Shown: positions 16,850 through 36,200 of the stretch, one piece after another
How positions within the stretch are numbered: position 1 is the stretch's first letter
Layout of the letters: each line of letters starts with the position of its first letter
NCBI GenBank assembly: GCA_963965975.1
Contig: OZ014422.1
Location: forward strand, 4,053,155-4,117,154
DNA: 64,000 bases
Direction: 5' to 3'
Origin: Xestospongia bergquistia
Taxonomy: Eukaryota > Porifera > Demospongiae > Haplosclerida > Petrosiidae
Made by a program: the position numbers and the translations under genes
The notes under the pieces: generated by a model
The model's input: the letters and a program-made list of their open reading frames with translations, nothing else
Told to the model about the DNA's origin: nothing
The model's database searches: none

Positions 16850-17422
16850 ATCCTCCCTCACTCTCCCACTATCTTTCAGAGTATCTCTCTCTCTTTCATA
16901 GTATTTCACTGTCAGAGTCTCTCTCTCATTTACACACACACATTCTTAGATTCTGTCAGTCTTTCTCCTTGTCTCTCTTGCCCCTCGCAATAGAATTATC
17001 TCTCTATATCACTCTCGGAGTCTCTATGTCTCTCATTCTCTCATTTTAAAAATGTCTCTCTCTCCTTATTATTTTGTATATCTCTTTCTTATTCACTTAT
17101 TTCCTCTCTGTACTCTCTTTCCCTTTCTCTCACCCATGCACAGAGACTGTCAGAGTCTTTTTCCCTCTCTTTTTCTCTGTCTCTTTGTCTCTGTCTATAA
17201 ATCTTTCTTTCTCTTACTCTCTCTCTCTCTCTCATAGTTTATCACTGTTTGAGTGCCTGTTACACACAAACACTTACACACACTCTCAGAGTCTGTCAGT
17301 CTCTCTCTGTGTCTCCTTCCTCAGTTTATTCTCTCTCTCTTTCTTTCAGAGTCTCCCTCTCTCTCTCTATCAGTCTCTATTTCTCTTTCTTTCTCTCTTA
17401 TTTTCTCTTTGTCTGTCTGTCC

Positions 17423-17454
<32 letters not shown>

Positions 17455-17770
17455 GATTCAGAGTCTCTCCCTGTTTCTTTTTCTTTTTTCTCTCTCTCTA
17501 TCTCATAGAGCATCACTGTCAGAGGCTACCTCTATCTTTTCCACTTTCTCACACGCCCACACTCCCAGTTTCTTTAATTCCTTTTCTCTCTCTCTTTTTC
17601 TCACTCACACACTCATGTCTCTCAGTCTTTCTTGCTCTCTGTCGTTTCTCCCTCACATTAGGAGTCTCTCTCTCACACTCGGTATCTCTCAATCTATTTC
17701 TTTTCAGAGTCTCTCTCTTCTCTTATTCTTGTAGTACCTTGACAGAACAAAATACACTCTCATTCTTTTA
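16235..17770. repeat. CT-rich low-complexity tract, duplicated unit 1
   Basis: Dense (CT)n with recurring AGAGTCTCTCTCTC and CATAGT..CACTCTCAGAG phrases. The many ORFs it opens encode Ser/Leu/Phe strings on plus and Arg/Glu on minus and are composition artefacts. The tract ends with GTACCTTGACAGAACAAAAT. The whole block matches 21590-22955 in the same order, so the pair is a segmental duplication. Confidence 0.85.
16546..16634. repeat. (AC)n microsatellite
   Basis: About 90 bp of near-pure AC dinucleotides, interrupted once at about 16567, inside the CT-rich tract. It is absent at this length from the duplicate at 21.8 kb, which keeps only a short interrupted ACAC stretch, so the run expanded or contracted after duplication. 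Confidence 0.95.
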
Positions 17771-17814
17771 ACTTATTATACACAAAATTATTAATTATAC
17801 ACATAATTATCTGT

Positions 17815-18080
17815 TATGGATCATCTCAAACTGAGACAGCTAATGAGCTGGCCAATCTGAGGACTGCAGTGACCAGTAAGTAATACCAATTAATTGTACT
17901 TAATTATAGGAGTTGGTCTTCTCAATGGAGGATTTGGTAAACTAGGTCAAGAGATAGAAGATTCTTAAATGATAGTTTGTATGGCTACGTATACGTATGG
18001 TGAAGGAGACCCTACTGATAATCCTGCAAAATTTATGATGGGTTTAAAAAGACAACCAATAATCATGAAGAACTTTTACA
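17815..18080 (+). pseudogene. POR: NADPH–cytochrome P450 reductase FMN-domain fragment
   Basis: Two adjoining segments look like FMN-domain exons. The first (17815-17875, GTAAGT donor) encodes YGSSQTETANELAN, the FMN phosphate-binding loop. The second (from about 17910, after TTATAG) encodes KLGQEIEDS, an in-frame TAA, then MIVCMATYTYGEGDPTDNPA, which matches the MATYGEGDPTDN signature of P450 reductase with an extra TY. The internal stop and the loss of downstream reading mark it as a fragment. POR transfers electrons from NADPH to microsomal P450s; this piece cannot do so alone. Confidence 0.65.
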
Positions 18081-18279
18081 CTTTAAGTCAATGGTTAGAG
18101 CTTATTAATAATTAATTAGTTGCTAGTTATGCCTCTGCAACCTCTATGTTGTGAGACCACACCCTTTTACTAGTTACATCATATCTTATAGTATTGAGGA
18201 AGACTGTGAAAGACAGAAGGCACATTGATCAGCTGTATATATCACATTATTTTAATATTGACAATAGTTAGACTACTCA

Positions 18280-19010
18280 AGTATATTGGTTTCTTTCTCT
18301 CTCTATTGCTCTTTATTTATCTTTCTCTGTCTCTCTCTGTCTCACACTCATTTAGAGTCTTTTCTCTCTCTCTCATTGTGTTTCACTCACAGAGTCTGTC
18401 TTTCTCTCTCTCTCTCATGCACATTCTCTTAGAGTCTGTCAGTCTCTGTCTCTCTCTTTCTCTCCTTCTCTATCATAGTTTCTCACTCTAAGTCTGTGTG
18501 TCTCTGTCTAACACCCACCCACACATTTATGCTCTCTTGGTGTCTTTCAGTCTCTCTTTCTACACACACACATATATATCTTTCACTCTTTCATAGTGTC
18601 TCACTCTCAGAGGCTTTCTCACACATACATACCTTCTTAAAGTCTCTTAAATGTTTTCTCTTTCACTCTCTTCCTTACTTTAGAAGTCTCTCTCAGAGTA
18701 TCTCTCTTACAGTCTCTTTTTCTTTCTCTCTCTCTCAGAATCTTTTCTCTCAGTCAGACCCACTCTCTCACTAACATGCACTCAGAGTCTCTGTCTCTCT
18801 CTCTCATACAGTACCTCTTTCTCTTTCTCTCATCCTCAGAGTCTCTCTCTCATTTTTCTTTCTCTGTCACTATATTTCTCTATAAGAGTGTGTCTGTCTC
18901 TTTCTCTCTCTCACACAGTCTCTCTTTCCCATTCTCTCTCTCTCTAGGTCCTTCTCTCACTTTTGATGTGTTTCTCACTCTATCTCTTGTTTTTAAACGA
19001 TTATGCGCAA
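18280..19010. repeat. CT-rich low-complexity tract
   Basis: Continuation of the CT-rich type with AGAGTCT phrases, following the reductase-like fragment. The ORFs here encode Ser/Leu-rich strings and are not called. Confidence 0.85.
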
Positions 19011-19130
19011 ACTCTATTATCTTTTCGACTTCTTATTCACGTTTATGGCATATAAGACAACGTATTATTAATTTATGTAATAAGTTACATCATATGATAA
19101 TAATGATTGAACTAGTCTGTTAGTAGTGTA

Positions 19131-19257
19131 TTAGTAGTTGTTATTGTACTTATTATCAAGAAAGGTACTAGTTATAATACAAGAAATGAACAACTCAAGA
19201 ACTTCCAAAACAATCCAGTGTAAGAGACTGAAACTGAAACAGCTGATTAACTCACAC
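19131..19257 (+). pseudogene. Possible reductase membrane-anchor exon, copy 1
   Basis: This plus segment matches 23446-23575 and translates, with indels, to a hydrophobic VIVLIIKK end followed by a polar linker. In the better-preserved copy the linker reads QSSVRETQNV, which resembles the segment between the N-terminal anchor and FMN domain of P450 reductases. A TAA and a shift break this copy. The assignment rests partly on the nearby FMN-domain fragment. Confidence 0.3.
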
Positions 19258-19560
19258 TCAGAGATTATATCCCTTTCCTTCTCTCTCTTCAGCCTCCCTA
19301 CAAACCTCTCTCTCTCTCTCATAGTCTCTCACTATTGTTCTCTCTCTCTCTCATTCTTTTAGAGTCTCTCTCTCTCTCAGAGTTTCTTTGTCTCAAAGTC
19401 TCTCCTTTTCACAGTCTCTCTCTCTCACTCATGAAGTCTTTTTTGTCTGTCAGTCACTTTCTCTCTCAACGTTTCCTTTCTCGCAGTCTCTCTCTCACCC
19501 ACAGAGTCTTTTTTCTCTTAGATTCCATCTAATATCTTGGAGTTTGTCTCTATCTCAGAG
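19258..19560. repeat. CT-rich tract
   Basis: Short CT-rich block with AGAGTCTCTCTCTC units directly after the anchor-like segment, as also seen at 23575 after the second anchor-like copy. The gap from 19560 to 20150 shows no supported gene. Confidence 0.75.
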
Positions 19561-20149
19561 AACATAATATATGCCTTTTTATAAGATATATGGTCGTTCT
19601 AAATTAATCAAAGATGATGACAAATACAATGCACCACATTTAGTACACTCATGTAAGGTTATGATTGTCTCATTTCAATTTTGCTATTAATAGATATATA
19701 TAATATATATATGTTGGAGAAGAGTGCACAAAATATTAGTAATTTTAGTAGCAGGACACAAAGAAGACTGCATATAAGAATTGGTGGAATAAAATACTCT
19801 GCTACTCAGATGAAACATCCCATTATTTGCATGCTACATATTCCCTCTTATTACAACAGATCCACAATTCAGATAATCCACCTTATCTTCACTCCTTGAT
19901 TCTCCACTTTCATCTTTCTTCTTGCTTTTATCAGCTAGCATTATATCCTTATCAAGTCCTTTTATTTTTAAAATTTTAGTTGCTCACCAGAAGATATTAG
20001 TGTACAAGGTATTTCAAGTCCTCCCTGAGGAAAGTTGTATGAGTACCTTTTACTGCATTCTGACTTTACACACTATAGAACCTCTTGCTCTCAAGAATAG
20101 AGAGCATATAGCAGACAGTTTTCTACACACATGTCCAACTATCTCATAA

Positions 20150-20815
20150 TCTTTAACTCTCACAGTCTCTCTCACACGTACACACTCTCAGAGTCTCTCA
20201 GTCTTTTTCTTTATTTCTCTCTCCTGCCACATTATAGGAGTCTATCTCCCTATGTTTGTCTCTCTATCTCTCTAACTCTCTGTCTCTCTCACTCTCTGTC
20301 CTTTCTCCCTCCCTTTCTCTCTCTCTGTTTCTCTCTCTCTGCTCTCACTATCTTATAGTCCCTCCCTCTCTCAGAGTCTCTCTCTTATCCTCTCTCTTAT
20401 AGTCTCTCTTTTTCTCCTTCATACACACAAACTCTCAGTCTCTCACTCTTTTTGTTTTTCTCACTCTCCCCATCTCTCTTCCGATCAGTCTCTATTTCTC
20501 TTTCTCTCTCATTTATTTTATCTCTGTGTGTCATTCCCTATCTCACACAGAGATTTTCTGCTTGTCTTTCTGTCTTTGCCTCTCTCTCCCTTACTTTAGG
20601 AGTCTCTCTCTCTGAGTCTATCTCTTGGAGTGTCTTTTACATTCTCCCACTCACACAGTCTCTCTATTTGCCTATATGCATGTCATCCTCTCACATACAT
20701 GCACACACACCTTCAGAGTTTCTCTATCTCTCTCTATCTAAATCTCTTTCTCTCTGTCATAGTGTCTGTCACTTCTTCCTATCTCACACACTCACATTGA
20801 TAGTCCCTTAATGTC
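20150..20815. repeat. CT-rich tract
   Basis: Another block of the same low-complexity family, ending near a TAGTCCCTTAATGTCGG transition. ORFs are artefacts of the dinucleotide composition. Confidence 0.8.
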
Positions 20816-21000
20816 GGAGTCATGCCATTTCATGTAATCCCATTTTGTTTAACAAAATGGACTTTTGTCCCATCTTGTCTAGTAGTGTAAAAGGTTTAAG
20901 ATAAGTGGATTAAGGCCAGTAAAGGTGATGGAATTCTAATTCAAAAGTACTAATAATGTAAAGTCTTTGATGTCTTGAAAGGCAGAGTACTTAAGAGGAC

Positions 21001-21370
21001 CCATTTCATACATACAATATATTGAATCAATGGAGTTTGTTACAACAGCAAGAGGAGCTAAGTCACTTATACTCCAGGTTATAGGTACACACTCAATTGA
21101 AGAACAGCAGATGGACAGATGTGTTGGAGATGTCCAGATATAAGTTGTCCTGGAAGAGCAGTCACTGACATTCATGATCAGCTAGTCTCTTGCAATGAGA
21201 GTCACTCCTGCCTCCAAAATGTAACAGAGACAGTAGAGACAGTAGTGGAGTTGATCAGGGAAGATGCTGACTTCAAGTTGTACATCCATCAAGTGATATC
21301 AGGCTGCAGGAGGGCTTCCAAGAAGAAGAAGAAAGTACAGAAACCACGAGAACAGACTGAAAACTATTAA
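21001..21370 (+). pseudogene. FLYWCH-type zinc-finger fragment, broken
   Basis: A first frame encodes MEFVTTARGAKSLILQ. A shifted frame then carries GYRYTLN, a TGA, and CWRCPDISCPGRAVTD followed by a histidine, which is the F..t.rG–GyrY–WrC..–C.ar.t layout of FLYWCH fingers. These fingers accompany Mutator-like transposases and some host factors. The last third ends in a Lys-rich tail (SKKKKKVQK) before TAA. At least one frameshift and one stop break it. Confidence 0.5.
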
Positions 21371-21559
21371 GGAAAAGCATGAAGTAGGACACTATATGTT
21401 ACAAGAACTTAAGGCGTATACCCATTGGGTATCTTTGTAATTACTGTTATTTAAATGAATTTGTTTTTTAGACGATATGGGACAATTATACATTTTGTTA
21501 GGCGAAATAGGATTAGACGAAATGGCTATAAATCTTAATGTCTCTCTCAGAGAACATGC

Positions 21560-22955
21560 ATTAGAGTTTCTATCTCATAGTCTCTCACCTTCCTCTCACT
21601 CTCTCTCTGTCACTCCCTGAGTCCCTATCCCTCTCTCTCTATGTCATAGTCCATCACTCTCAGAGTCCCTTTCTTTCTCTATTGAACAGAGACATACACT
21701 ATCAAATTCTTTCACTTTTTCTTTCTCACTCTCTAAATTTAGAAGTCTCTCTCTCTCATACAAACAAACACAGATACCTGTCTCTCCTTACCTCACTTTA
21801 GAACTCTCTCTTTTAGAGTCTCGCATTCCTTATCAAATTCTCTATATCTCTCTCTCTCACACACACATACACTCACAACACACACACTCTTAGAGTCTCA
21901 CTCTGTCTATTTGTGTTAGTGTGTGTGTATCTCTTTCTTGCATAAGATATCACACATAAAGTCTCTCTCTAACACACTCATGCTCAGATTGTGTCACTCT
22001 TTCTTTCTCACTTTCTCTGTCACAGAAACATTGATAGAGTCTCTCAGTCGCTTTCTCAGTCTCTCTCTCTTTCTCTTTTCTAACTTCCCTTACAACAGAA
22101 GTCCTTACTCTCTCTCAGAGTATCTGTCTCTCTTTCATAGTCTTTCACTCTCAGAGTCTCTCTGTCATTCACACACACACACACACTTAAATTCTATCAA
22201 TCTTTCTCCTTGTCTCTCTCCTCCCTCGCAATAGGATTATCTCTCTCTCTCTCTATTACTCTCTCACTTTGGAAATGTCTCTCTTTATCTTTTTCTATAT
22301 CTCTTTCTCTTTCACTTATTTTCTCTCTGTGTGTCTGTCCCTCTCTGACCCATGCAGAGAGACTGTCAGAGTCTCTGTCTGGCTCTCTTTCTCTCTGTCT
22401 CTGTCTCTCTCTCTCTTTCTCTTACTCTCTCTCTCATAGTTTATCACTGTTAGAATCTCTCTTACACACAAACACACACTCAGAGTCTGTCAGTCTCTCA
22501 CTCTCTCTCCTTCTCCTTCCTCAGTCTATGAGTCTCTCTCTTTCTCTCAGAGTCTCCCTATCAGTGTCTATTTCTCCTTCTTTCTCTCTAATTTGCTCTT
22601 TGTCTCTCTGTCCCTCTCTCTCTCACGCACAGACACTCTCAGAGTCTCTCATTGTCTCTTTCTTTTTTCACTTTCTCTCTCTCTATATTTCATAGAGCAT
22701 CACTGTCAGAGGCTATCTCTATCTTTTCCTCTCTCTCATAGACCCACACTCTCAGTTCCTTTCGTTCTTTTTCTTTCTCTTTTTCTCTCATACACACTCA
22801 TAGAGTCTCTCAGTCTTTCTTGCTGTCTGTCTCTTCTCCCTCACATTAGGAGTCTCTCTCTCACACTCGGTGTCTCTCTATCTATTTCTTTTCAGAGTCT
22901 CTTTCTACTCTTATTCTTTTAGTACCTTGACAGAACAAAATACTCTCTCATTCAT
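21560..22955. repeat. CT-rich tract, duplicated unit 2
   Basis: Duplicate of 16235-17770, same orientation, sharing unique words such as ACACTATCAAATTCTTTCAC and the terminal GTACCTTGACAGAACAAAAT. Many small indels separate the copies. About 5.3 kb lies between the starts of the copies. Confidence 0.85.
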
Positions 22956-23445
22956 TGAACATATTATAGACAACATTCTGTTAAACCACAAATTAATTAG
23001 AATATGTGACACTTTGGTCTCATATTCTAATTAATGCCCACATTTATGATGTATAGCAATGTCTTATTTACGTAACAAGTCATGTCACGTGGTAATAGTG
23101 TTTGAGCTGTTGAAAGAGGTAATTGGTTAGGTTTTTTATCTGTATTCATTTGTGTGTAAATTAGTCTATCTGTAAGTCTATTTTCTTTGAATCATTTAAG
23201 TGTGAATTAAGTGCGTGTAAACTTTCTTATTCATGATTTCTGTGATAGTTCTTATCTTTGTCCATTTCGTTTCATCTTTATTCTTTGTTTGATTTCTGTT
23301 ATAAATACCTGATTTTTTTTCAGATTGTTAGTTCTTAACCGTATTGATTTCATTTAAATACAAGTTCTACTTAAACTTAGCTGCGTACTCAGCTGCAGTC
23401 TTACCATAGAACTATACAAAAACTTTCAACATGAGCTAGTCAATT

Positions 23446-23575
23446 AGTAGTTGTTGTACTTATTATCAAGAAATCTACTAGTAAGAAGACACCAAATGAA
23501 AAAAATCAAGAACTTGTAAAACAATCCAGTGTAAGGGAGACTCAAAATGTGACAGCTGATGAACTCACACACACT
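23446..23575 (+). pseudogene. Possible reductase membrane-anchor exon, copy 2
   Basis: Open segment encoding LVVVLIIKKSTSKKT, then NQELVKQSSVRETQNV and TADELTHT before running into CT repeats. A hydrophobic helix end followed by a charged linker fits the N-terminal anchor of a POR-like protein, and the sequence is duplicated at 19131-19257. With no FMN domain following, it is a fragment at best. Confidence 0.35.
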
Positions 23576-24130
23576 TTCTCTCTTTCTCTGTCTCTGTCTC
23601 TCTCACTACATATGGTAAAGAGTATCCTACTGGTAATTGTCACTCAGAATATCTCTGTCTCTCTCTCTCTCTCTTACACACTATCAAAGTCTCAATCTTT
23701 CTCTCTCTGTTGTTCTCTCTCTTATCTCTCTTTCTCTCTCACTCTTTCTCATTTCTCAGAGTATCTCCTTCTCTCTCATAGTCTATCCTTATAACATCTT
23801 GCAGTCTTTCTCTCATAAACTCAAAGTGCTCTCTTTCCCTCGATCTTTCTCTCTGTCTCAATCTCTCTCTCTGTCTCTCCAACTCCATCATCTCTGTCTC
23901 TGTCTCTTTCCTTCTCTTTGTCTTTTGGAATCTCACTCTCTCCCTCTTAGAACCTCTACTCTTTCCCTCTTACAGTTTACATATTTTGATGTTTCTTTCT
24001 CTCAGAGTCCATCTCTCTCTCTCTCTCCCTCTCTTACTCACTCCAGAAGTCGTTCTCCATCTCTTCCTCTCTCTTACTTTCTCTCACTCTTTCAATCTCT
24101 CAAGTTTCTCTTCATAATACACATTCCATA
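23575..24130. repeat. CT-rich tract
   Basis: Last long block of the CT-rich family. Its opposite strand gives Arg/Glu-rich ORFs such as 23739-23936, which are artefacts. From 24130 to 24770 there is a short ACAATCCTAATAATATA repeat and a small CT stretch at 24536-24635; nothing else was recognised. Confidence 0.8.
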
Positions 24131-24769
24131 GATTTATGATCTAGATCTCCATTAACTGATGGCTATTCTAAGTTATATCTGTAATAATAATATAGCAGTC
24201 CTAATAATATAACAATCCTAATAATATAACAGTCCTAAATTGTCTATAGCCATCGACTCTCGACATTGCTGCCAGAAAGAGGAGAGAGTTGACTGTTGGT
24301 CGAGGGCCCCTGGCTTCCCAAGGAAGTCATGAAGGGGGGCACCTTTACTTGAACATATTGTGATGTAATGTACCAGACTAATTGGTGTGATAATGTGTAA
24401 TATGTTTCAATGTAGTTGATCTTTGACCTCATCTGTCAGTTTCACAGGTTACTTTGAGCATTGGATGTTTTAAAAAGAAGAGTTATCTTTTATGGACCTC
24501 AAACAGACTATGCTCACAAACTCGTGATAACAGACTCTTTCTTTCTCTCAGGGACTATATCTCTTTTTTTAGAGTCTCATTGTCTCTCATTCCCTCTCTT
24601 TCTCTGTGTCTCTTTCCTCACTCTAGGAGTCTGTTTATTGTCAACAATGTTTGGCCATCTGTCTAATACAAAACGATGAACTTGAGATAAGATTGAATCT
24701 TTTTCTGTCCAATTCTTTATTTGATTAGCGGTGACAGTTACTTCTGAGAGTTATGAATGAGAATGAGTA

Positions 24770-26250
24770 GTTCCACCGATCCATCTTTACTTGACTCGGA
24801 TGTGGTCTCTGCTTATGGGAGTCTACTGAGAGCATCAACATTTGCAACTTTGGATCCTGGACGATATTCAATCTCATATTCATAAGAACTGAGGAGTAGT
24901 GACCAATGTTGAATTCTCAATGCACCCATCACTGGTATCAGATGGGTTTCACTGAATAAATATTTGAGGGGTTTATGGTCTGAATATATTTGATCTTTCT
25001 TCCGGATAAGTAATAGTTGTAGTGTAGTTTCTGTACAGTGACAATAATTGCTAGGCCTTTTTCTAATTGCAAGTAAGTCTTCTCAGCTTGTGTGAGAGTT
25101 CTAGAGATGAATGCAATTGCTTTCTCTGATCCATCGTCCATCTTATGAGCTAAAACTGCTCCTAAACAATACTGTGAAGTGTCACAAGAAAGTATGATCT
25201 TCTGACAATCGTAGTGCACAAGGAGTGTCAATGATTTTTTAGCAACTGCTTAGTATTATGAAATGCATCTTCATGCTACTTCTTCCAAGACCAGTTTACA
25301 TCTTTCCTAAGTAACTGATACAGTGGGGACAAAAGGGTATATAAGTGATGCAAGAATTTAGAGTAATAATTGAGCAAACCTAAAAACGAGTTTAATTCTG
25401 TCACATTTCGAGTATGTGGGGTTTGTTTAATTGGTCTGACTTTCTCCTCTGATGGATGCAAACCATCTTGATCAATAACATGACCCAGATATTCAACTGA
25501 TGGTGCAGCGAATGTACATTTGTGTCTCTTCAATGTTACTCCAGCCTCTTCTAAACAAAAGTGTACTCTTATCAGGTTGTGAAGGTGCTCCTGTTGACTT
25601 TTTCTGGTCACTAAAATGTCATTAATATATGCAGCAACCCCTGGTAACCCTTGCAACAAACTCTCAATTGTTCTTTAAAAAATGGCGTGGGCAGAAGAGA
25701 TACTGAAAGGAAGTCATTCAAACTGAAATAAACCCTTCTATGTGTTAATGATAGTAAATGTTTTGGAATCCTCTTCCAGTACAATTTGTTGATAAGCATG
25801 AGAAAGGTCTAGTTTAGAGAATAGCTTTCCTCCAGAAAGGGCTGTGAATAGATCTTCCACTAGAGGAATAGGATACTCTTCTAGTTTGGACACTGTGTTG
25901 ACTGTCACCTTGTAATCTCCTCCACAAATATGTATACTCCCATCTGACTTGACAACTGGTATGATTGGGATAGCCCAATCAGAAAATTAAACTGGTGAGA
26001 TAATTCCAGCTTGGAGTACACGTTGAAAGAAGGCTTCGGACAACATATTTCTTTTGGAAAAAGGAGCCTGACTATGGAAGAGGAGAGTCATTCCTTCAAG
26101 TCCTTGCAGAATCCTCTGAAAATACGCAAACGAAAGGAAGGTACTTCCACAACTCATCCACTTCTTCAAAGTCAGAGGAGGTCACATTGTCGGATGAGAA
26201 ATCACTACAAGAAAGGTCGTCTGCTGCCATATCTACAAGAGACATTCTAG
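24770..26250 (-). mobile_element. Ty3/Gypsy pol remnant
   Basis: Reading down the minus strand: RT fingers and palm (DWAIPIIPVV, ICGGDYKVTVN, KLDLSHAYQQI at about 25790-25990), the catalytic region where YxDD is altered to YINDILVT (about 25615), thumb (FLGLLNYYSKF) and RNase H (SCDTSQYCLGAVLAHK, FISRTLTQAEKTY). Several stops and frameshifts break it. No LTR, gag, protease or integrase was found on either side, so it is a truncated copy. It borders the viral-like block at about 26250. Confidence 0.9.
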
Positions 26251-26258
26251 TAAGTTGA

Positions 26259-26753
26259 TTTTACCAAAAACTGAGAAATTTAGATATATTAGATTGTTTA
26301 GCCATTATCAATAATGAGATTAAAGATGCCAATCATTGTATAACAAGAAGATTTGAAAGAAATAGATCAGAAGAGCAACTTAATCAATGGGAACAATTCC
26401 TTAATAATCCCATACGACCTAATGTTAAAAGATTTATGGTTAACCGTTGTGCATACTGTAGGATGACAATATGTAGTATTGCTCTTCAGACTGTCTGCAT
26501 GTTGAGTAATTGTAGATTGAAGTATAGTAATTTTAGTGACCATGACATTGCTATGAGAGATCGAAAGTTTCAGAGGTGCATTAACTGTCTTGAATTTGTA
26601 CCCTTTGATCGTTCAAAACCATGCCCACAATGTGTTAAGTCAAAACAAGCTTTAAGAGAGTTTGATATAGACTATTATGTAGAGGAAGAGGAGGAAGTAC
26701 AAGATGAAGAAACGACCTGTATGGACATCTCGTTCTTGCCTGAATTGTCATAA
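26259..26753 (+). CDS. Cysteine-rich putative zinc-binding protein, unknown
   Basis: The frame is open from 26259; the first ATG is at 26436, so it may be a spliced exon or use an upstream start. After a helical part (FERNRSEEQLNQWEQFL) come Cys pairs CAYC, CINC and CPQC, with CRL and CML cysteines between, consistent with two zinc-ribbon or RING-like knuckles. The end is very acidic (YYVEEEEEVQDEE). It is the first plus-strand ORF of the viral-like block. A second, overlapping frame near 26704-26784 (start MKKRPVWTSRSCLNCHKHF) also carries a CxxC and could be a small separate product. No family was recognised. Confidence 0.45.
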   Translation, partial: FYQKLRNLDILDCLAIINNEIKDANHCITRRFERNRSEEQLNQWEQFLNNPIRPNVKRFMVNRCAYCRMTICSIALQTVCMLSNCRLKYSNFSDHDIAMRDRKFQRCINCLEFVPFDRSKPCPQCVKSKQALREFDIDYYVEEEEEVQDEETTCMDISFLPELS

Positions 26754-26861
26754 ACATTTTGTTACTTACATTACTGACTTTTGATTACAACGTGATTCTA
26801 ATCATTTCCTTTATTAATTTTGTTTTTTTTGTATTCAAATATTATCTTTTCTTTAAATCTA

Positions 26862-27388
26862 ATGACTAAAGACCTTCAAACGCACAAATTGACTTTTGCG
26901 CAATGGAAAGTAAACATGGAGAACATGATTTTCGGTCTCCAAGCTGCTAAAAAAGTAATGCATGTAGGGCCTGCTCGGGAGACAACCGTATCCAAGGGGA
27001 ATGTTTGTGTGAAAATTGGCTTAGTCACAGTATGCTTCTTGGAAGTGTACAAAATGGCAAAGGACAACAAGGAAGGACTGAAAACATGACAGATGCTGTT
27101 GTGACGATGGACGAAAGGAGAGATCACCTACAGGAAGGAATAGAGCTACTGCAGAAAGAGTTTGAAGAAGTCCAAGACAATTCTCGAAGCCAGGGGATGA
27201 AGTTTCAAATCGATAACAAGAGGATAGAATTGTTGGACGAACAACATTTGGAAGTGAGGAAAGACCTGGAGAAGTACACTATGATGGCGAAAGAGCAACA
27301 GAAGTGCATGATGGAGACTCTTATGAAGTACAAGGAAGAGTGGACACACCGTCCGAAAGTGTCTGTCACTCTGAAAGATGAACTCTGA
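26862..27388 (+). CDS. Coiled-coil protein segment, two overlapping frames
   Basis: One frame starts MTKDLQTHKLTFAQWKVNME and closes at 27089. A second, open through 27005-27388, has a Cys cluster (ACRACSGDNRIQGECLC) and then a charged heptad-rich helix (RRDHLQEGIELLQKEFEEV, RIELLDEQHLEVRKDLEKY). The overlap suggests alternative splicing, a frameshift break or overlapping genes. Composition is GC-richer than the flanks. No homology was recognised beyond coiled coil. Confidence 0.4.
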
Positions 27389-27551
27389 AAGCATCAACCA
27401 AAGTCATAAGGGAATGCAAAAGTCTCTGCAAGTGGGAGGACAATATCTCGGAGGAATACAAGATGCAATTGGACTCCTATTTTGAAGTCTCAACCAAATA
27501 GGAGGAATAGTGGGGACGGTCAATCAAGCAACTCGGGATCTGATTCCTCAG

Positions 27552-27650
27552 GTAAGCATGTCTCTCACAATATAGCAATTAGGTTATTATTGCATGTCTT
27601 ATTACATTCAGTAATGATCTTTTGTTACATTGTGGTTGATGTGGTTACAG
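27552..27650 (+). other. Putative spliceosomal intron
   Basis: The sequence GATTCCTCAG/GTAAGCATG opens and GTGGTTACAG/GTGAATCATC closes a 99-bp AT-rich stretch between two coding-like, GC-richer segments of the viral-like block. If real, the block is transcribed and spliced in the nucleus. Confidence 0.55.
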
Positions 27651-28172
27651 GTGAATCATCATTTGAATGAGGAACTGAGTACAGAGAAACAGAAACTAAA
27701 CTTTATGCAAGAGAATCTATTAGGGAGAAAGGCTGATATAGAGAAGTCAAGAGCACGAGTCCAGGACTTAGAGCGAAGACTATGTGAGAATCGTTTTACA
27801 TACTTTTTTCTGTTCCAAAGGTATGAGCTCTGTAAAACAGAACGGGGCAGAACTAGGTCGTGTCCTGGATACATTGAGACAACACAAAATGTTTACGGAT
27901 GGAGAAACCCCTCCCTCAGATGGGAACTCGATTCCTTTTATACCTTCGCAAGAATCATTGGACATCCGGTTATCAGAACTGGAGGTCACAGTCTCTGTCC
28001 TCAAAGAAAATCAAGACACTCTTTTGATGACAAGCTCCTCCTTTGAAGAAAAGATGACGCAGTTACAAATTTCTCTCGATGTGACGAAAGGCAATTCCAA
28101 TATGAACGGGACTGCATTGGGTCAGATAAACATGGAGTTGATCGAAATGATGAAGCTAGCAACGTCAATATA
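27651..28172 (+). CDS. Coiled-coil protein segment
   Basis: After the putative acceptor at 27650 the frame encodes NEELSTEKQKLNFMQENLL and KSRARVQDLERRL. It then passes a TTCCAAAG acceptor-like site into a frame reading NGAELGRVLDTLRQHKMF, a short Pro/Ser linker, and another helix (LDIRLSELEVTVSVLKEN). It ends at TAG 28171-28173. Several exons or broken pieces of one long coiled-coil protein are likely. Confidence 0.4.
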
Positions 28173-28209
28173 GGAAAAGTGCAGCACCATCTCAACGACG
28201 CTCAATGAT

Positions 28210-28731
28210 GTGAAATCCATCCAGGGTATGATACAGAAGGAGATAGGTACTCTGTTCTCGGAGGCCAACATAGACAAGAGCCTGAATGCTCGCATTTTGT
28301 ACTTAGTGGAACAGTTGTCGGCTCTGCAAGACAAGATGATGCTGGAACAGTTGACTGTTTTGGAAAGGAAGCAAATAGAGATTCAAGAGAGGTTGATGAA
28401 ACTGGAAAACGAGAAAGGACAAATGGCCTGGGATGCGATGTCTATGACAAACCAAGTGGGTACTATACAGACGAACCTAGATGTTGTTGCTTCACAATCC
28501 CATAGCTTGACAGAGCAAGTGGACAGGCTGACAAGAGAGGAGAAACAAATGAAAGTCCAGGGGATGAAAGACACAAAAGCGGTCCAAGAGAAAATGTGCA
28601 CAATGGACAAGAGGATGGACACGTTGGTAACGAACACCCAGTCGAGGTTGATCAAGATAGAGGAGACGTTGTTGATGGAGAAACTGGAAATAAGAGAGTT
28701 GAAAGTGAGAGTAACAACTCTGGAGAACTAA
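28210..28731 (+). CDS. Coiled-coil protein, 173 codons
   Basis: Intact ATG-to-TAA frame, almost entirely helical with heptad-spaced Leu, Ile and Met, for example LNARILYLVEQLSALQDKMM, LERKQIEIQERLMKLENEK and LRVTTLEN at the end. No globular domain or signal peptide. The preceding frame ends at 28173 with a similar coiled coil, so a single stop may separate two halves of one protein. Fibrous viral proteins and tape-measure-like proteins have such composition, but no specific family is recognised. Confidence 0.5.
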   Translation: MKSIQGMIQKEIGTLFSEANIDKSLNARILYLVEQLSALQDKMMLEQLTVLERKQIEIQERLMKLENEKGQMAWDAMSMTNQVGTIQTNLDVVASQSHSLTEQVDRLTREEKQMKVQGMKDTKAVQEKMCTMDKRMDTLVTNTQSRLIKIEETLLMEKLEIRELKVRVTTLEN

Positions 28732-28862
28732 ATGAAGTTGCAAGGAATAGATCTGGACAAAGAGAGGAGGAGAAACGAAGACTCTTGAAGACTTTGAACA
28801 GGTTAAGAGAGCAGCTCAAAGAGGACAGGGAGGATTTGTTAGCTTATGTGAAGACGTCCTAA
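28596..28862 (+). CDS. Charged ORF overlapping the coiled-coil ORF
   Basis: An 88-codon frame overlaps the previous ORF by 136 bases in another frame and continues past it, ending with a basic helix (QREEEKRRLLKTLNRLREQL) and AYVKTS. The part beyond 28731 looks like the natural continuation of the coiled coil, so the upstream overlap may be only a shadow and a frameshift or splice may join them. Confidence 0.35.
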   Translation: MHNGQEDGHVGNEHPVEVDQDRGDVVDGETGNKRVESESNNSGELNEVARNRSGQREEEKRRLLKTLNRLREQLKEDREDLLAYVKTS

Positions 28863-28881
28863 GCCCCGACATAGCCGTAGA

Positions 28882-29151
28882 ATGTGGAAAAATAAAGAAG
28901 AGCTACAAATGGCAGGTAGACAGGATGAGGATATGATACAGAAGGATTTCATTTTTTCAGTTCAAAGGGACATAGAGAGCCTCCACTCCAAAGTAGATCA
29001 AAACGTAGAAAAAACGAACGAGGACAAAAATGATCTGGTGAAACTATATTTCTGGATTCAGGATCTGTACAAGAAGCTAAATTTCATAGTCCCAGTCCCA
29101 ACACATCCCCTGAACCAGGATAGGGAGACAATATTGGTCACAGCAACCTAG
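28882..29151 (+). CDS. Coiled-coil ORF, 89 codons
   Basis: Encodes QRDIESLHSKVDQNVEKTNE and LVKLYFWIQDLYKKLNF, then a Pro-rich end, stopping at 29151. It continues the series of helical, charged segments. It may be one exon of the same long coiled-coil product. Confidence 0.35.
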   Translation: MWKNKEELQMAGRQDEDMIQKDFIFSVQRDIESLHSKVDQNVEKTNEDKNDLVKLYFWIQDLYKKLNFIVPVPTHPLNQDRETILVTAT

Positions 29152-29349
29152 ATTTAAGATATGATGGGAGGAGCAACAGATTCAGAAGCACCGATGACGA
29201 CACAGAACACTCAGTTAGCCCCAGTCCAAGACGAAGAAGACGGAGAGGAGGACGTGGAGGTAGTGGATTTGGTGAAAGTCTTGAAAAAGCCATCAGAGTC
29301 ATCAACAAAAGACTCAGTATGTCACAGAGGAGCAAAAAGATGACTTTTT
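29124..29349 (+). CDS. Arginine-rich ORF in an overlapping frame
   Basis: The frame runs from after a TAG at about 29121 to TGA at 29347-29349. It encodes TDDDTEHSVSPSPRRRRRRG followed by RGGSGFGESL and a basic helix (INKRLSMSQRSKK). SPSPRRRRRR with RGG is typical of nucleic-acid-binding tails and nuclear localisation signals. A second frame over the same bases (29161-29343) gives an acidic 60-codon ORF; the two are mirror products of purine-rich codons. Which one is used is not known. Confidence 0.35.
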
Positions 29350-29351
29350 GA

Positions 29352-29577
29352 CTCACCTGAAAACATTCCACAAAGCTCCCCAGCACCCTCTATTAGAAAT
29401 GACCCGGTCAATCTTCCTTCCTCTGCTCCCTCCAACCTAACCCCAAGGCAAAGAGAACCGGTTCAAACGCCTCAAATCGAGGATACACATTTGGAGGGAC
29501 AACCGACCTCTCATAACTAACGAAACGCACAGAGCACTAAATACAGAACAACGCTACAACGCACTACTCAGACCTAT
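29352..29577 (+). other. Pro/Ser-rich frame overlapped by a basic frame
   Basis: One frame (29352-29519) reads PENIPQSSPAPSIRNDP and PSSAPSNLTPRQREP, a disordered linker. Another (about 29437-29577) reads ENRFKRLKSRIHIWRDNRP and ends at RPI-stop. The second may be the upstream part of the helicase gene or the end of the preceding one; breaks prevent a firm model. Confidence 0.3.
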
Positions 29578-29600
29578 ATAATACAGCCTAAAAGAACTTT

Positions 29601-30763
29601 CATGATAGTCCTGAAGGCCAAGGACGATTTACCTTATCACAAACTGTACAACAAACTCAGAGACTTTGTTCTTCAACGCATGTACATGGACCAGTTTCTA
29701 TTGGTCAACTGTAAGCATTCCGGTAAGAACTCATGCATGAAAACACACACCATCACATAATAGGTGTGGCTCCCCCTCAGGAAGCTGACATTTACATTAA
29801 ATGTTTGAAGGACTTCCGTGAGGAGTTACACACTCGTTTCGGTGACAGAAATCTGGCCAACAACGGAAAAGGAGGATGTGGAAACTTTTGTCAATACGTT
29901 TCTCCAGACGGCACATCGAAACAAATAGGACCGTTATAGATCCTGACAGCGGTATACTGCTATACATCCGTGCCGGTTATGACTCTAGACAACACCATTG
30001 CAAGTGGTACGCAACAATATATCCCAAAGAAAAGAACCAACTCAAAGCCGTTTGGGACTGCCCACCTGGCAAAGATACATTCATGTCGGAACACAAGAAG
30101 AAAAATCCTTCCTGCTTCGAGGTAAGTTGTGTAACTAAAAATGTGGATGGGGTCATAGTAGATAAATTCGCTATGTTCCAATCTGATCTTGTCAGATTGA
30201 CTAATTTTAACTTTTCTGCTTTCCAATACAGCAGACTCATACACTTCAAAGAACTAGATCTTCACACACTTTCTTCTAACTTTCAAAGCACTCTAAAGAA
30301 ACTTTTCGAAGGGGACGAAGAACTCGTAGATGTTAAGTATTCCAGACCGGTTAAAATTTCGTCAGTGCCCATAATAATAACATCTAACTACAACTCCGAA
30401 GTCCTCTTGAGAAACTTTGTGACAACGACAAAGCATCGTACAAAGCTTTCCTCAATAGAATATACATTTACAAGTCAGTCCAATTACTATTATTCTTTTT
30501 TTAGTATCATTATTAGGTTTGAAGTCACTTTCTCAAATCTCAACTTCTTCAAATCCATTTAAAAGTTATGATCGACTTCACAGAAAACTCTAGTAACTGT
30601 AACACTTATGTACCTGTAGATAAAGTGAGGGACACATCCCAGTACATAGACGAGAACGGAGGTCAGATGGCTTACAGGCCTGAAGACTATGTCAAACTCC
30701 TTAGATTAGACGTCCCTATCAACTTGTTTGACTTCAAAGGAGATATCGACATATTTAACATAT
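29601..30763 (+). pseudogene. SF3 helicase (parvovirus NS1/bidnavirus-like), broken
   Basis: In the 29876-30562 frame I see a hydrophobic strand with acidic end (RLIHFKELDL, about 30235-30262) as Walker B, then LKKLFEGDEELVDVKY (B' region) and PIIITSNYN (about 30369-30395), which is SF3 motif C with its sensor Asn. A candidate P-loop region (CPPGKDTF, about 30061) is degenerate. The frame changes just after motif C, and the following ASYKAFLNRIYIY-type segment is in another frame. A second frame change lies near 29900-29940. The C-terminal frame 30568-30765 is open to TAG. An intron at about 29712-29759 is possible. SF3 helicases unwind origins in small DNA viruses. The HUH nuclease usual upstream was not recognised. 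Breaks are reported and not repaired here. Confidence 0.65.
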
Positions 30764-30914
30764 AGGAACTTGACTCTAAGTTAGTCATTACTTTTATATG
30801 CTGTTTTAAGTATATGCTTATTAATAATTTTTGTCATATTTCAATTTTTTCATAATAATAAAAAGTTATTAAAAATTATTTGTACAACAAAGGTATTTGT
30901 GATTCTGCCTTAAC

Positions 30915-31637
30915 TTATAAGTCAGGATGTCTAACAGTTTGCATCTTCTGCAGTATGGCCTCACTCAATGCTACTGGATCTTTAGCAATTTCTGCATCTT
31001 CCATGGCAAGTTGTTCAAAAAGCAATTGTTTCTTCTGCCTACTAGATTTTATGTAGTTCTTTTCTTCCACTTTCTTAGGATACCAAGCCAACTTGTGGCT
31101 AAAAGTACCTTGCCCTTGAGAAGCCTTGTTGCTGTAAGTGATGGAAAGTTTGTTTCTTATCACGTTAGCTCTTTTCTTATAATAGGATATCTGTGCCAAA
31201 TCATTGTCCTTGGAGATGTTCAAATTCAACACATCCCTCTTTTCGAAAGTCTCCAGAGTCTGCTTCATAGTTTTAAGGTAAGAGTGACCCAACCTCCTAT
31301 ACTCTCTGAACTTCTTTGGATTCCCTTCCAATTTGGACAACAACCTATAACTTTCTCCAATCGTGGTAAGTACATCTACTAACCTAACCATCACAGGCGT
31401 TAACCTCTGCACTCCAACGTATATGCCACCAACTACTAAAAGTCCGCTCACTAAAGGTACCAAGTCTTCTTCTTTGACTCCTGGAACTCCCATCTCATGC
31501 AAAGCTTCCATTTCTGTTTCAACTTGAGTGACTTTCTTTGCCAACTCTTCTTCACCTTCGCTTGTGTATCCTTCCAATACTTCGTCAAGTTCAGCCAAAA
31601 AACTAGCAGTAAGGTCTTTGGGATCTGCAGCAAACAT
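30915..31637 (-). CDS. Intact 240-residue ORF of the viral-like block, unknown
   Basis: The longest intact ORF here, convergent with the helicase. It has an acidic helical N-terminus (SFLAELDEVLEGYTSEGEEE), a hydrophobic helix at about residues 58-78 (LVPLVSGLLVVGGIYVGVQ), then a long basic, helical C-terminal half with Tyr/Lys-rich patches. No signal peptide. The start ATG is preceded by an A at -3 and lies about 5 bp from the border with BAIAP3-like pseudogene sequence. A structural or membrane-interacting viral protein is possible, but no family was recognised. Its intact frame contrasts with the broken helicase. Confidence 0.55.
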   Translation of the reverse strand: MFAADPKDLTASFLAELDEVLEGYTSEGEEELAKKVTQVETEMEALHEMGVPGVKEEDLVPLVSGLLVVGGIYVGVQRLTPVMVRLVDVLTTIGESYRLLSKLEGNPKKFREYRRLGHSYLKTMKQTLETFEKRDVLNLNISKDNDLAQISYYKKRANVIRNKLSITYSNKASQGQGTFSHKLAWYPKKVEEKNYIKSSRQKKQLLFEQLAMEDAEIAKDPVALSEAILQKMQTVRHPDL

Positions 31638-31641
31638 CTTG

Positions 31642-33265
31642 ATGATATGCCTTCAGACAAAGTTAGTCAAGTCAGGAAATGTCATTATAATAATTATCAA
31701 TACTGTGTGTTAGGTATTGGAACCACTGTTGCACTATATTGCTTCTAATATGAGCAAACTGGGACAAGCTTTATTGACTCCAATCTTCCTAAGGTAGTAA
31801 ATATTTATCATATCTAGACATCGCTGTTACTATTATCATATTAGTATTATGAAGGAAATATGGCTAGATATTATCAGCAAGTTAAAGTGAGAATATGTGA
31901 AGTTGTCACACATATCAGCTGTTAATTGTCACAAGCGTAAACACTTGAGAGTAACTCTAATTACACTAGGTGACTTCTTTGAAGCTGATGGAAATGGATT
32001 ATCACATACTGAACTGGAGACAGAGGACTACACAGTGAGTAACTAAACTTATGACATGTAATGAGTTTCTTTGCAGACCTTGTTGGATGAACTTAGTGTT
32101 TCTGTGTTATCAACAGAAGATGTTATAAAGAAATTTTGTCATGATTTAGTAAAACATCAGGTATTGAAGTATTGTTATACTTGTACATTAATGTTTATAT
32201 ATATTTTAAAGGTTCTTTCAAAGAATGAATACGGTGTCCTTCATATAAGTCATATTTATGACTCTACAAAGAAGGCATTACTAGTTGAAGTATTGTTTGC
32301 TGAGCATATTACTGGTCTAGATTGAAGTGGTGAGTCAACTAGTTTCATATGTCATAGTCATATTGATTTAGGAAAAAGCGACCCTTACGTCAAGCTGTAG
32401 CTACTACCAGAAACAATATTTACTGCTGTTGAACATAAACCCCTTAAAACCACTGTGCAGAAGCAAACATTAGACCCAATCTTCAATGAGACATTTGAAT
32501 TGTAAGCTCCAAATTTTGTCTCTACAAGATATGTAAAGACAATATGTTGTAGTAACTATATATGCGTATATACAGTAATTGTAATATTACTATTTTCAAT
32601 ATTCATTTTTATTTCACCAAACAAAAAATATATTAACTTTCAATAGTCATTATTTAAGCCACTGACGAAGATAGTCAGTCTGACTATTGAAACGTTTGGC
32701 ATTAATACATTTTTTGTTTGGTGAAATAAAAATGAATATTGAAAACGCTAATCTACCCAAACATCCAGGTCTTTTTCTCATTGCAATATTACTATTAGGA
32801 CTGCTGATCAAACAAGATGGTGCTATTCTTCTTCTCACTATGTTTGATCACAATACATTTGGTAGTGATGACTTTTCTGGTATATGTGTCGTATCTTGTA
32901 ATACAACACCTTTGGAAGGAGATGAATGTAAACTAGAGCACTTAAACCTCTTTCGCTATGAGAACACTCTTGCCTTTAATGAACTAGAGATGAGAATTAC
33001 TGAACCGATGCCTCACAAATTTATGAAAAGTGTTAAAATCTTTAAGAGAGAAACCAATGTTGGACATTCTTTTAATTCAGTTCTCATTTTCATTGGTACC
33101 ACTTGCAATAATTGTTTGTATCTGTGTAATTTTTTTTCTAAGATTTTTAAAGTTCTACATGAAGTTAATTTAGAACAAGATACTAGAATTATAACTGTAC
33201 TAAGTCAATTAGTTAGAAAAATTTGCAAGATTGACTGGTCATTGTGGCTATTGTTAGAATACTGA
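31642..33265 (+). pseudogene. Unc13/BAIAP3-like pseudogene, 3' copy with C2B domain
   Basis: Plus-strand segments match the minus gene at 60.6-61.4 kb in exon and intron: 31642-31795, 31850-32036 (with an in-frame TGA at about 31888, LK-stop-EYVKL), 32077-32160, and 32211-32336 (LISHIYDS..LLVEVLFAEH, GLD-TGA-SG with a GTGAGT donor). It continues further than the other copy: 32372-32503 encodes GKSDPYVKL, a TAG, LLPETIF and QTLDPIFNETFEL (C2B calcium-loop region). 32800-33050 encodes LLLTMFDHNTFGSDDFSG, the last C2 strands, and a basic tail. The first 20 residues of the ORF starting at 32687 come from an inserted hairpin element. Confidence 0.8.
32593..32745. mobile_element. Hairpin (fold-back) element inside the C2 intron
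   Basis: Arms 32593-32636 and 32702-32745 are 44 bp and inverted, with one mismatch. The 65-base loop holds CCACTGACGAAGATAGTCAG and GACTATTGAAACGTTTGGC, which pair partly with each other. A 12-base word, AATATTACTATT, flanks it at 32583-32594 and 32784-32795, so the inserted unit may extend to about 32783 with that word as target duplication. It supplies a spurious ATG to the downstream C2-coding frame. Confidence 0.75.
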
Positions 33266-36200
33266 TGTTATGTTGACTATCCCAGGACAATTCTGGGATA
33301 GTCATCAGTCATAGCCCTTGTGTAAACGTATCCTGGAATATATATACTGATCAAAGTTACATTGACTGATAATGTTACATCTTGTTACAATCCTAAGGTG
33401 AGCATTTGAGCAATTACAATTGTATCAAAGCAATCTAGAATATTGGTGTTACTGTGACTTGGGATGGTCATCAGGGTCATAACAGTAATGTCATTCCTTC
33501 TGAGTATACTAGGGTTGTTACTGTGACTATATTCTAGTCTATCACAATCCTATGATGGTCAACAGTCATAACTACTTTCAATATCTCTATTACATGTATC
33601 TTGTATCTACATCTACTCATTGAAAACTGATCATCAAATTGTTTAGCTTCTCTCAATAGGTATAGATATCTAAGATGCCTTAACTCTAACTAATTTATCA
33701 TCTACTGACAGAACAACAATGTTAGGATCTGAATGATCTTTTAATACTTTCAATGATCATTCTAGTTTCTTGTGTCATATACTTACGTTGCTCCTGCAGC
33801 TTTTCGATGATATATCTAGCAAGAGAATGAAACATCATATATACATAGAAATCAATATTAAAGATATTAGGTCATTTCAAAGAAGGTGACATTTTATTAT
33901 CACTACAGACATCAATGCTCAACTGTTTGTCACATGTTGTTCATGAGCGATCATCATTAACTGTTTATGATGTGGCAATGCTGTCCACACAAAATGTATA
34001 CAATATACTATTATATACATAACTAACAAAATATATCCCACTACCTGTATCTACTAAGAACTTCAATAAATAAAAAATCATATACTTCTATGTAGTTGAA
34101 CACAATGGACTAGAATTAGCAGCAACAAACAACAAATATTGTGTCTGTCTCTCATCAGTTATATGAGCACAAACATTAGCTCAATAGTAACTGGTTTGTT
34201 GTTCTCAGAGCATCTGCATACTGATACAATGCTATCTTTAGGTAAATGAAATTCGCCTGAATCCACAAACCTTAAGCAACTACTTCATATACAGACTCTA
34301 CTGGTGAGATGACCTCTGCTGGGGTTGACAAGTCTTAACACATTTTTTCTAATAATAACTCCCGAGCAGTTGATTAGATTGTTTGAGTAGTTTTGTAGTG
34401 TTGCAATGGTCTCAACATTCTTGTGCTAGATAGACAAATGAACTCAACCAATGTGTCTCATACAACATGCTATCATTCAGTGTATGATAAAATAACTTAC
34501 CACTGTACACTTGATGATATTCAATATATGGAGACTATTTGATACTGCACCTTCAACATAGCCACCAGAGATGATTTTTCTTCAAATTGTATTTCAAAGT
34601 AACTACCAGGTGGCATTCACTGTACGTCCATTGATCTGAGATATGATCCATTTACCTAAAAGAAGAACAAATAGAACACTCATCATTATCACTCATCAGT
34701 AGTAGTGGTTAGATCATGACAATGACTGTAGTGAGCAATATCTGACAATTAGATGTGATAATTTAATCTTCTTGCCAGTTGATACATCAAATGGATTGTG
34801 CTCAATGGTGTATAACTCTACCACAGAATAAGTGACAATATTGAGCTTGCGATATTTATGTAGAGGGTGCATGTGAACCCATAACATCCTATCATTTTTA
34901 GTGTTGTCCTTCATAATCAGGTGACATCATGTCATCATTGGTTCATTTCACAACTTGTATGTTGTCATCTGGTGGTTATAGTTGTGTCCAAGTATAGGTA
35001 GAAGTATTGAGGTGAAAGTTGGCATTATGAAAACAATCATCAGTTTAACACCATCCTGCAAAATAAAGTATTTTTTTGACTGATCTACAGGAATATCCTG
35101 CCACGCCTTGTATGGATTTTGTTAAAGTATTTAGGCAATCTCTGTTTATTCAACTATAACTAAAAGATCAACTGTAGCATTTACATAGTGTGTACAAATA
35201 GGTACAAAATAAAGTCATGTGTGGTGGGATGATTTTTGGACTCTAGCTATTTGCTGTGATTATTATTGACTTCTTAACTTGATTGGGACATCATACATTT
35301 ATACATTCATTGATTACAACTTGTTTAAGAATTTAACTAGTGAATTTGGTACTAGACCAAGTGATGTAATTCAAGTTGTTCTTCAAGCTGTTCAATTTTC
35401 CAATTAAGCTAATCCACCACTACAAGCTGTAGTCAAAACATGAAAATTTTTGGTCAAAATATCTTGTGCTAAGGTATTAAATGTCACCATATTGCTAATG
35501 ACAACTTCACCTACACTATCACCAGCACAATATGCACTTTTACATATCCTTTCATCCCTTATTAATTAAGTTATCAAGTATACTTGGTCACAGTAGATGT
35601 ATCAGGTTGATATATTTATGGAGCAACACAACTTCAATTAAATAATTGAGTTATCTTGATGAATAAAGCTAAAGAGAAAGTGGTGACAACAATAGCCATG
35701 ACTTTGAAACTACGGAGCACATACACAAGTGATGACAACGTTGCTCAAGATGATCTCTTAATTCTTAAACCAATCCAATTTTTGTAGTGATAACATCACT
35801 TGAGAAGATCTTTTTTAACTCTTATAAATGTCAACAGTTTACTTTAAACATTCCAATGTAAGTGTGCTAATTTTTCGTAGATCTTAAGTTTCCAATGTTC
35901 GAGCTTTTTTTACATTGAAACTTTCCCAATCTACTATAGTTAAAGTATGTTCATAATGTGTTTTGTTTATTATTAAAGCTGAATGAGTGTACTCAGGATA
36001 TATAAATATACTTTTTAGACATTTTGGTATTTCGATTACACATTCTTTGATTAGACATTTTTAGTTTAGAAACTAATATTTCTGAGATTACACATTCTGG
36101 GAACAACCCGTGCGTCAGAAAAACGATTTATTATATATCTGTATAACCAAACTAGAATAGCTAATTCAACTGGTAATATACGATAAGCATACTTGTTTCT

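Follow-up and report, generated by a model that had tools for sequence, protein, structure and literature searches.

A decayed virus-like element with an E1-type helicase and palindromic ends in the genome of the sponge Xestospongia bergquistia

A gene-dense block of about 5.4 kb in the genome of the sponge Xestospongia bergquistia raises the question whether a small DNA virus, a transposon or an ordinary host gene is preserved there. The block lies in a stretch of 64,000 nucleotides, referred to here as the window, which corresponds to C12:4053155-4117154 of the searched genome (146 Mb, 21 contigs; C12 stands for contig 12, and likewise C1, C7, C9 and C13). In a preliminary description it was taken for an endogenised small DNA virus of an unknown kind or for a transposon using the replication gene of such a virus. 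With a probability of roughly two in three, what the block preserves is a decayed piece of an endogenous DNA virus from a lineage not yet described; the intact genome would have measured about 12-14 kb and would have been linear, permanently or at one stage, with palindromic (hairpin) ends. It is very likely that the element is endogenous and virus-like; that it was a linear, hairpin-ended virus with a capsid of its own is held at somewhat better than even odds, both the capsid and the HUH fold being putative. The earlier view of an endogenised, ambisense virus or virus-derived element with a superfamily 3 (SF3) helicase was borne out, its size aside.

The block is real, exceeds chance and belongs to something bigger than was first supposed. 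Its guanine and cytosine (GC) content over positions 26026-31640 is 0.400, which 9 of 292 overlapping stretches of that size attain, and the remainder of the window has 0.338; the claim of a GC-richer block in AT-rich surroundings holds. In tblastn searches with pieces of open reading frames (ORFs) of the C1 and C9 lineages, 22 matches were obtained along the block (16 on the early strand, two on the minus-strand ORF and four in antisense shadow frames), in contrast to none on the reversed block that served as a control. As for the borders given earlier, the right one at 31640 is exact, whereas the left one at 26259 is not, since the repeated block starts at 26026 in blastn comparisons. These two positions are the common edges of the aligned copies, and the copies L020, L021 and L025 keep aligning with one another beyond both of them; the block in the window is therefore a fragment, and its reading as a complete small virus is ruled out. 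The 5.4-5.6 kb once compared with a densovirus genome are the length of this fragment, and other copies are built of larger units, which measure about 12.1 kb on contig 12 and about 13.9 kb on contig 1. The copy L022 matches window positions 23938-33102 at 97.9% in blastn and represents a host segmental duplication. On the same contig, window positions 23938-33873, which take in the block together with flanking DNA, are 98-99% identical to C12:3903001-3913000, a recent segmental duplication of the host.

The helicase is part of the replication protein (Rep) of the element. The frame 29876-30562, for which a profile search had been proposed, matches PF01057 (Parvo_NS1) over residues 109-198 with 22.7 bits at a cutoff of 20 (E 5.6e-5), and the helicase assignment thus stays significant; the papillomavirus E1 profile gives 16.2 bits (E 0.0059) on the same frame, below its cutoff. 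Motif C, PIIITSNYN, was located at 30368-30394 on the plus strand, and the reported Walker-B-like strand reads RLIHFKELD in the window, changed to FKELD from the FEELD or FEEFD of the C13, C1 and C9 copies. As described before, this frame on the plus strand and a 240-residue ORF on the minus strand converge tail to tail. The latter had been called intact: it is indeed open over 240 residues, but it begins at an internal ATG, and in other copies the frame runs on upstream past the break of the window.

The C9 copy has an intact P-loop (GPSNTGKS), FEEFD and ITTNY, and its helicase matches PPV_E1_C (PF00519) with 59.2 bits (4.7e-16) and Parvo_NS1 with 35.2 bits (8.6e-9). The corresponding E1 and NS1 scores are 29.6 and 13.9 bits for L024, 42.4 and 21.5 bits for P0011, and 15.1 and 13.2 bits for L026, the top Pfam score of which belongs to DUF5906 (18.8 bits). 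Hence E1 outscores NS1 in four of the five pieces, and only that from the window scores higher to NS1; PF01057 itself is above cutoff in the window piece, the C9 copy and P0011. The SF3 helicase proposed earlier therefore stands, but the better preserved copies are nearest to papillomavirus E1 and not to parvovirus NS1. Among PHROGs families the C9 helicase weakly matches primase/helicase (5e-4), and elsewhere nothing better than 0.017 was found.

Upstream of the helicase, Rep carries an HHH motif, which according to the alignment is THHHIIG in the C12 copies (THHHIIE in one) and IHHHIVG in the C1 lineage; a RAGY(D/N)S stretch is present downstream in C12, C9 and P0016. On these motifs Rep is read as a putative HUH-like nickase at the N-terminus, which presumably nicks DNA, joined to an SF3 helicase of the E1/NS1 class. 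It had been stated that neither an HUH nuclease nor a capsid could be recognised; it remains true that neither has a library match, but the HHH motif is present in the window and is kept in the C1 lineage. The absence noticed earlier is partly a result of truncation, because the window does not reach the large proteins of the late strand. Possible introns had been suggested as well. A short one in the 3' part of Rep, a 43-nt gt-ag segment, is a plausible candidate, whereas an intron at 30122-30231 is ruled out by L024, which is coding through that stretch.

Remnants of Rep were found at no fewer than 10 loci (at least 19 match rows), four on contig 12, three on contig 7 and one each on contigs 13, 1 and 9, both counts being lower bounds. 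The minor late-strand protein is matched at all 10 Rep loci (11 rows), and the large candidate capsid protein at eight of them, on the opposite strand about 3-4.7 kb from Rep, the exceptions being the window and its near-duplicate L022. A gene named after its WYEWWC motif was matched in 9 rows, which fall on 7 places of contigs 1, 13, 7 and 12. ORF lists and alignments divide the copies into three lineages (contigs 12/7/13, contig 1 and contig 9) with one gene order common to them. In the orientation of the window, the early plus strand comprises a short ORF, a Cys-rich protein, coiled coils and an acidic stretch running into Rep, and the late minus strand comprises, leftwards from the right end, the WYEWWC ORF, the large candidate capsid protein, the MANYRNW ORF, a Pro-rich ORF and the minor protein. 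The gene order of the C1 copy (L031, L026) is identical to that of the C12 lineage, and the C9 copy (L034, L027) has the same order minus the WYEWWC gene and the short ORF. The flank left of the element is common to L020 and L025, and on contigs 12 and 7 the similarity between copies extends into the DNA around the element, so segmental duplication accounts for at least part of their spread. Protein-database searches gave 5, 4 and 8 matches, one of them the window's own ORF and the others from ENA contigs. One relative of the Rep N-terminus, P0016 (from an ENA contig of 8,060 bases), is only 50% identical to its best match in the genome, which indicates that a further lineage exists outside this assembly. 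The C13 copy is adjoined by tandem repeats of about 143 bp each (L024 5702-10000).

Palindromes mark ends of the element on contigs 1 and 12. On contig 1 the left end lies at 17216829, and the first unit of about 13.9 kb is separated from the next, head-to-tail unit by a 488-bp palindrome (17230500-17230987) that is 96% identical to its own reverse complement and folds with a z-score of -46, none of 100 shuffles being as good. Past this palindrome the array consists of a direct partial copy reaching 17234134 (3.3 kb) and then of an inverted 4.4-kb piece of the late region (17234137-17238503), which terminates in another palindrome. On contig 12 the left end carries a palindrome of 951 bp (L020 1530-2480), and a homologous palindrome (L030 3967-4239) stands where the next, partial unit is joined on; the unit of about 12.1 kb is counted from palindrome to palindrome. 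Of 13 sources examined, 5 contain the 13-mer AGTGAACTAACTG, each time inside a palindrome; both the C1 and C12 lineages have it, at differing depths. The 8-mer GTACCTCC was dropped as a palindrome marker, as it is also found outside palindromes (L027, L023).

The left junction of the C1 copy sits in the tip of a palindrome. This copy was inserted into a gene which we take to be hAT-like (Pfam gave DUF4371 at 2.7e-6, below cutoff), and a 97% identical copy of the gene on contig 13 (L038) has a 446-residue frame across the empty site. Comparison with this undisturbed site revealed overlaps of 8 nt (one mismatch) on the left and 5 nt on the right, the loss of about 44 bp of the target, no target duplication, and an extra 13-bp gap nearby in the right flank. 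The hAT-like gene together with the first 222 bp of the C1 left end recurs every 7,589 bp over C1:17201651-17216829; these repeats are 99.97-100% identical in the stretches compared and may be recent or an assembly effect.

Selection on the genes is visible between the lineages, where the proportion of synonymous differences (pS) is 0.65-0.84 and that of nonsynonymous differences (pN) 0.16-0.46 in 10 of 10 comparisons, pS being too saturated to correct in five. Near-saturated synonymous sites beside conserved proteins indicate that the genes were under selection during replication of the element and drifted later. Within the C12/C7/C13 lineage the ratio of nonsynonymous to synonymous substitution rates (dN/dS) is 0.60, 0.88 and 0.44 in three comparisons, from which the pair of the window and L021, in the wrong frame, was left out. 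The decay itself can be followed in the helicase: an identical in-frame deletion of the P-loop is present in seven of the copies covering the site (window, L020, L021, L022, L023, L025 and L028), L024 retains the segment with its P-loop changed to GPSNTEKS, and the C1 copy lost its P-loop via a different, larger deletion. In the window, the reading frame of Rep is further disrupted by shifts near 29.9 kb and again near 30.41 kb.

The life of the element may be pictured as follows. Two convergent gene sets, an early one (Cys-rich protein, coiled-coil proteins, Rep) and a late one (candidate capsid and two or three others), meet in the middle of the genome. The folded palindrome would be nicked and unwound by Rep, and rolling-hairpin or rolling-circle copying by a host polymerase would give head-to-tail as well as inverted concatemers. 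Stray genomes would then enter host DNA through microhomology-mediated repair. The copy in the window would have come about later, through segmental duplication on contigs 12 and 7 and through decay in the form of P-loop loss, frameshifts and truncation. The HUH-like nickase-SF3 fusion, the palindromic ends and the mixed concatemers would be the expected traces of hairpin replication, which is established to leave such traces in parvoviruses, and the microhomology and target loss at the single resolved insertion would be due to microhomology repair by the host.

The features of the element are collected in Table 1. The large late protein is a candidate capsid protein, as suggested by its position, a basic N-terminal stretch and a poor, beta-rich model. 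The coiled-coil-like genes lie on the Rep strand, and their score was reached by 0-5 of 200 shuffles in seven pieces; in three pieces of the window the heptad contrast was matched by 1, 2 and 4 of 200 residue shuffles. The Cys-rich protein seems to us zinc-ribbon-like and has no Pfam family above cutoff. Pfam scans covered 56 protein pieces from decayed copies, a subset of the ORFs, in which SF3-helicase families are the only ones that pass the cutoff; there was no family above cutoff for PolB, integrase, transposase, packaging ATPase or protease, no papillomavirus L1/L2 match and, at the level of sequence, no parvovirus VP family in the late-strand pieces.

Table 1. Position of the element's features (window coordinates, unless a copy is named)
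Feature	Position	Strand	Basis
Truncated internal fragment of virus-like element, 5,615 bp	26026..31640	.	blastn identity over this very span: L020 93.6%, L021 93.2%
Cys-rich early protein remnant; ORF 26436-26753 with CxxC pairs	26181..26753	+	tblastn on 26181-26669: C1 5.3e-10, C9 6.8e-8
Coiled-coil protein field, split into several frames	26826..29198	+	tblastn C1/C9 pieces at 26826-27062, 27447-27554, 27910-28089, 29094-29198
Rep N-terminal region, HUH-like (putative); HHH motif 29745-29765, tyrosine-bearing RAGYDS stretch downstream	29590..29998	+	tblastn C1 8.6e-11, C9 9.2e-11; motif level only
SF3 helicase remnant without P-loop	30158..30412	+	PF01057 5.6e-5; tblastn 1e-35 (C9 helicase), 1.9e-33 (C1 helicase)
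Junction of in-frame deletion of about 390 bp that removed the P-loop	30178..30185 (about 30181)	+	comparison with L024, which retains the segment
Candidate 43-nt gt-ag intron, 3' part of Rep	30474..30516	+	sequence reading; homology resumes in other frame beyond, in window and L026
Rep C-terminal region	30529..30765	+	tblastn 7e-12 (C1), 3e-10 (C9)
Minor late-strand protein, 240 residues open, 5' end cut by right break at 31640	30915..31637	-	33% to C1 and 30% to C9 homologues
WYEWWC ORF	L030 3370-3729	late strand	ORF list
Large candidate capsid protein, several frames	L030 485-2435	late strand	ORF list
MANYRNW ORF	L023 809-1423	late strand	ORF list
Pro-rich ORF	L020 8946-9479	late strand	ORF list
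Reverse-transcriptase element remnant, joined to fragment on left	24938-25659	-	RVT_1 1.6e-7 for 25276-25659

Elsewhere in the window, a strong negative GC skew extends over 16000-24000, with reading frames rich in Ser-Leu repeats at its right end, and similar Ser-Leu-rich stretches occur in L028 and L029. A second GC-rich stretch (GC 0.41-0.46) lies at 52001-56000.

Several observations weigh against a linear, hairpin-ended virus. The candidate capsid protein has no match in Pfam, PDB profiles or PHROGs; its single-sequence model is poor (mean predicted local distance difference test 41) and beta-rich, with no fold match at E <= 0.001, and the top structural matches are immunoglobulins at E 0.01 or worse. 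The HUH region, for which the HHH motif in two lineages and the conserved tyrosine stretch speak, gave no Pfam or PDB-profile match, and P0016 is without the HHH motif in the alignment. No terminal palindrome was detected in the C9 copy, no WYEWWC match was obtained on contig 9 in the genome search, and an empty site is available for one insertion only, that on contig 1. No free viral genome was found in IMG/VR (searched with the window ORF and three alignments, a pattern-based search that reaches close relatives only), in GTDB contigs or in phage records (tblastn). Finally, palindromes at tandem junctions would likewise be expected if the genome were circular and its origin palindromic.

This last point leads to the strongest alternative, unlikely as it is, namely a circular double-stranded DNA virus of adomavirus grade, in which the palindrome would be a replication origin and not a telomere. 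In the accessible parts of PMC11071296, adomaviruses are circular contigs of 9-20 kb with an SF3 helicase, a penton and a coiled-coil class of genes, RepE1 is present in cressviruses and adomaviruses, and relatively large parvoviruses are noted. Adomaviruses and other RepE1 viruses resemble the element in their E1-type SF3 replicase, size class, coiled-coil-like genes and late genes without recognisable relatives. The E1 match of the C9 helicase, the 12.1-13.9 kb units and the head-to-tail array all fit such a circle, which would also have E1-type Rep and penton-like genes. Unlike it, the element is seen as integrated copies in an animal genome, its coiled-coil genes share the strand of Rep, and penton, hexon and an adenain-like protease are not recognisable in the pieces scanned. 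Its palindromic ends and concatemers suggest linear ends: the C1 left junction in a palindrome tip and the C12 left end in a palindrome are as would be expected of them, and the inverted late piece with palindromes at both ends resembles a snap-back linear molecule.

Still less probable is a transposon that copied itself with a replicase taken over from a virus and made no virions. Numerous copies, terminal palindromes, an unproven capsid and the failure to find a free virus in the collections searched agree with it, but the sole resolved insertion shows target loss and microhomology in place of duplication, the 56 pieces are without a transposase or integrase family, and the shared outside flanks on contigs 12 and 7 assign at least part of the spread to segmental duplication. 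Moreover, at least five late-strand proteins unrelated to replication were held under purifying selection. Polintons, adintoviruses and meldviruses are like the element in their linear 12-20 kb class, inverted ends and integrated copies; they differ from it in that PolB (protein-primed in polintons and adintoviruses), the rve integrase, hexon, packaging ATPase and adenain have no match in the pieces scanned, and no duplication accompanies the resolved insertion.

A large relative of the parvoviruses or bidnaviruses, in a broad sense of Parvoviridae and Bidnaviridae, is improbable. Convergent ambisense genes and palindromic ends are shared with ambidensoviruses, and the SF3 Rep with its HUH-like motif, the Parvo_NS1 match, the concatemers with snap-back-like pieces and microhomology-type integration point the same way. 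Parvoviridae have linear genomes of 4-6 kb with palindromic ends; the element has such ends, but its 12-14 kb units are two to three times as long as known parvoviruses, its helicase is nearer to E1 in most pieces, and no VP or PolB family was matched in the pieces scanned. Papillomaviridae possess an E1 helicase, L1/L2 capsid genes and a circular genome of about 8 kb, of which the E1-like helicase alone was found in the element. The idea of an ordinary host gene or of a helicase match by chance, to which the early strand alone might lend itself by reading like a coiled-coil host protein, is hardly credible and is ruled out by dispersed, sharp-edged and decayed copies at several loci, palindromic ends, an occupied as well as an undisturbed hAT-like site and the strong E1 match of the C9 copy.

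The same genome harbours a separate CRESS-like element, L033 (C1:16415001-16421000; 13-1158, 1968-3455), with an intact 495-residue frame containing DTHFHAYI (HUH-like) and a GPSGSGKST P-loop, adjoined by a 381-residue ORF, which could encode a capsid protein, and a 283-residue ORF with a hydrophobic stretch. It resembles the element under study in having an SF3 helicase and an HUH-like motif, but its Rep matches PF00910 (3.8e-9) and is only 33% identical to the C9 helicase (E 1.9e-6).

The element is assigned to no known family, and no paper on sponge or early-animal relatives was recognised as describing it. Parvovirus-like sequences from starfish and sea anemone are reported in the available portion of PMC6085071; the word "sponge" does not appear in the portions available of PMC11071296, PMC10433990 and PMC5013282, nor "parvovir" in that of PMC11097642. 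The relation among the replicases of parvoviruses (NS1), papillomaviruses (E1), polyomaviruses (LT) and adomaviruses is treated as an open question in the parts of PMC10433990 and PMC11071296 at hand. Tentatively, the element might represent a new, family-level group of animal DNA viruses, linear, about 14 kb in length and ending in hairpins, with a still HUH-bearing E1-class replicase and unrecognised virion proteins, a now-fossil intermediate between the hairpin parvoviruses and the branch of papilloma-, polyoma- and adomaviruses.

In three diverged lineages within one genome, the element combines an E1-type helicase with hairpin ends, an HUH-like motif and a set of conserved genes not otherwise known. 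If its late proteins are capsid proteins, an unknown group of viruses would be documented and the transition from hairpin to circle would become testable. With a sponge as host, the class of E1-type replicases would reach an early branch of the animals.

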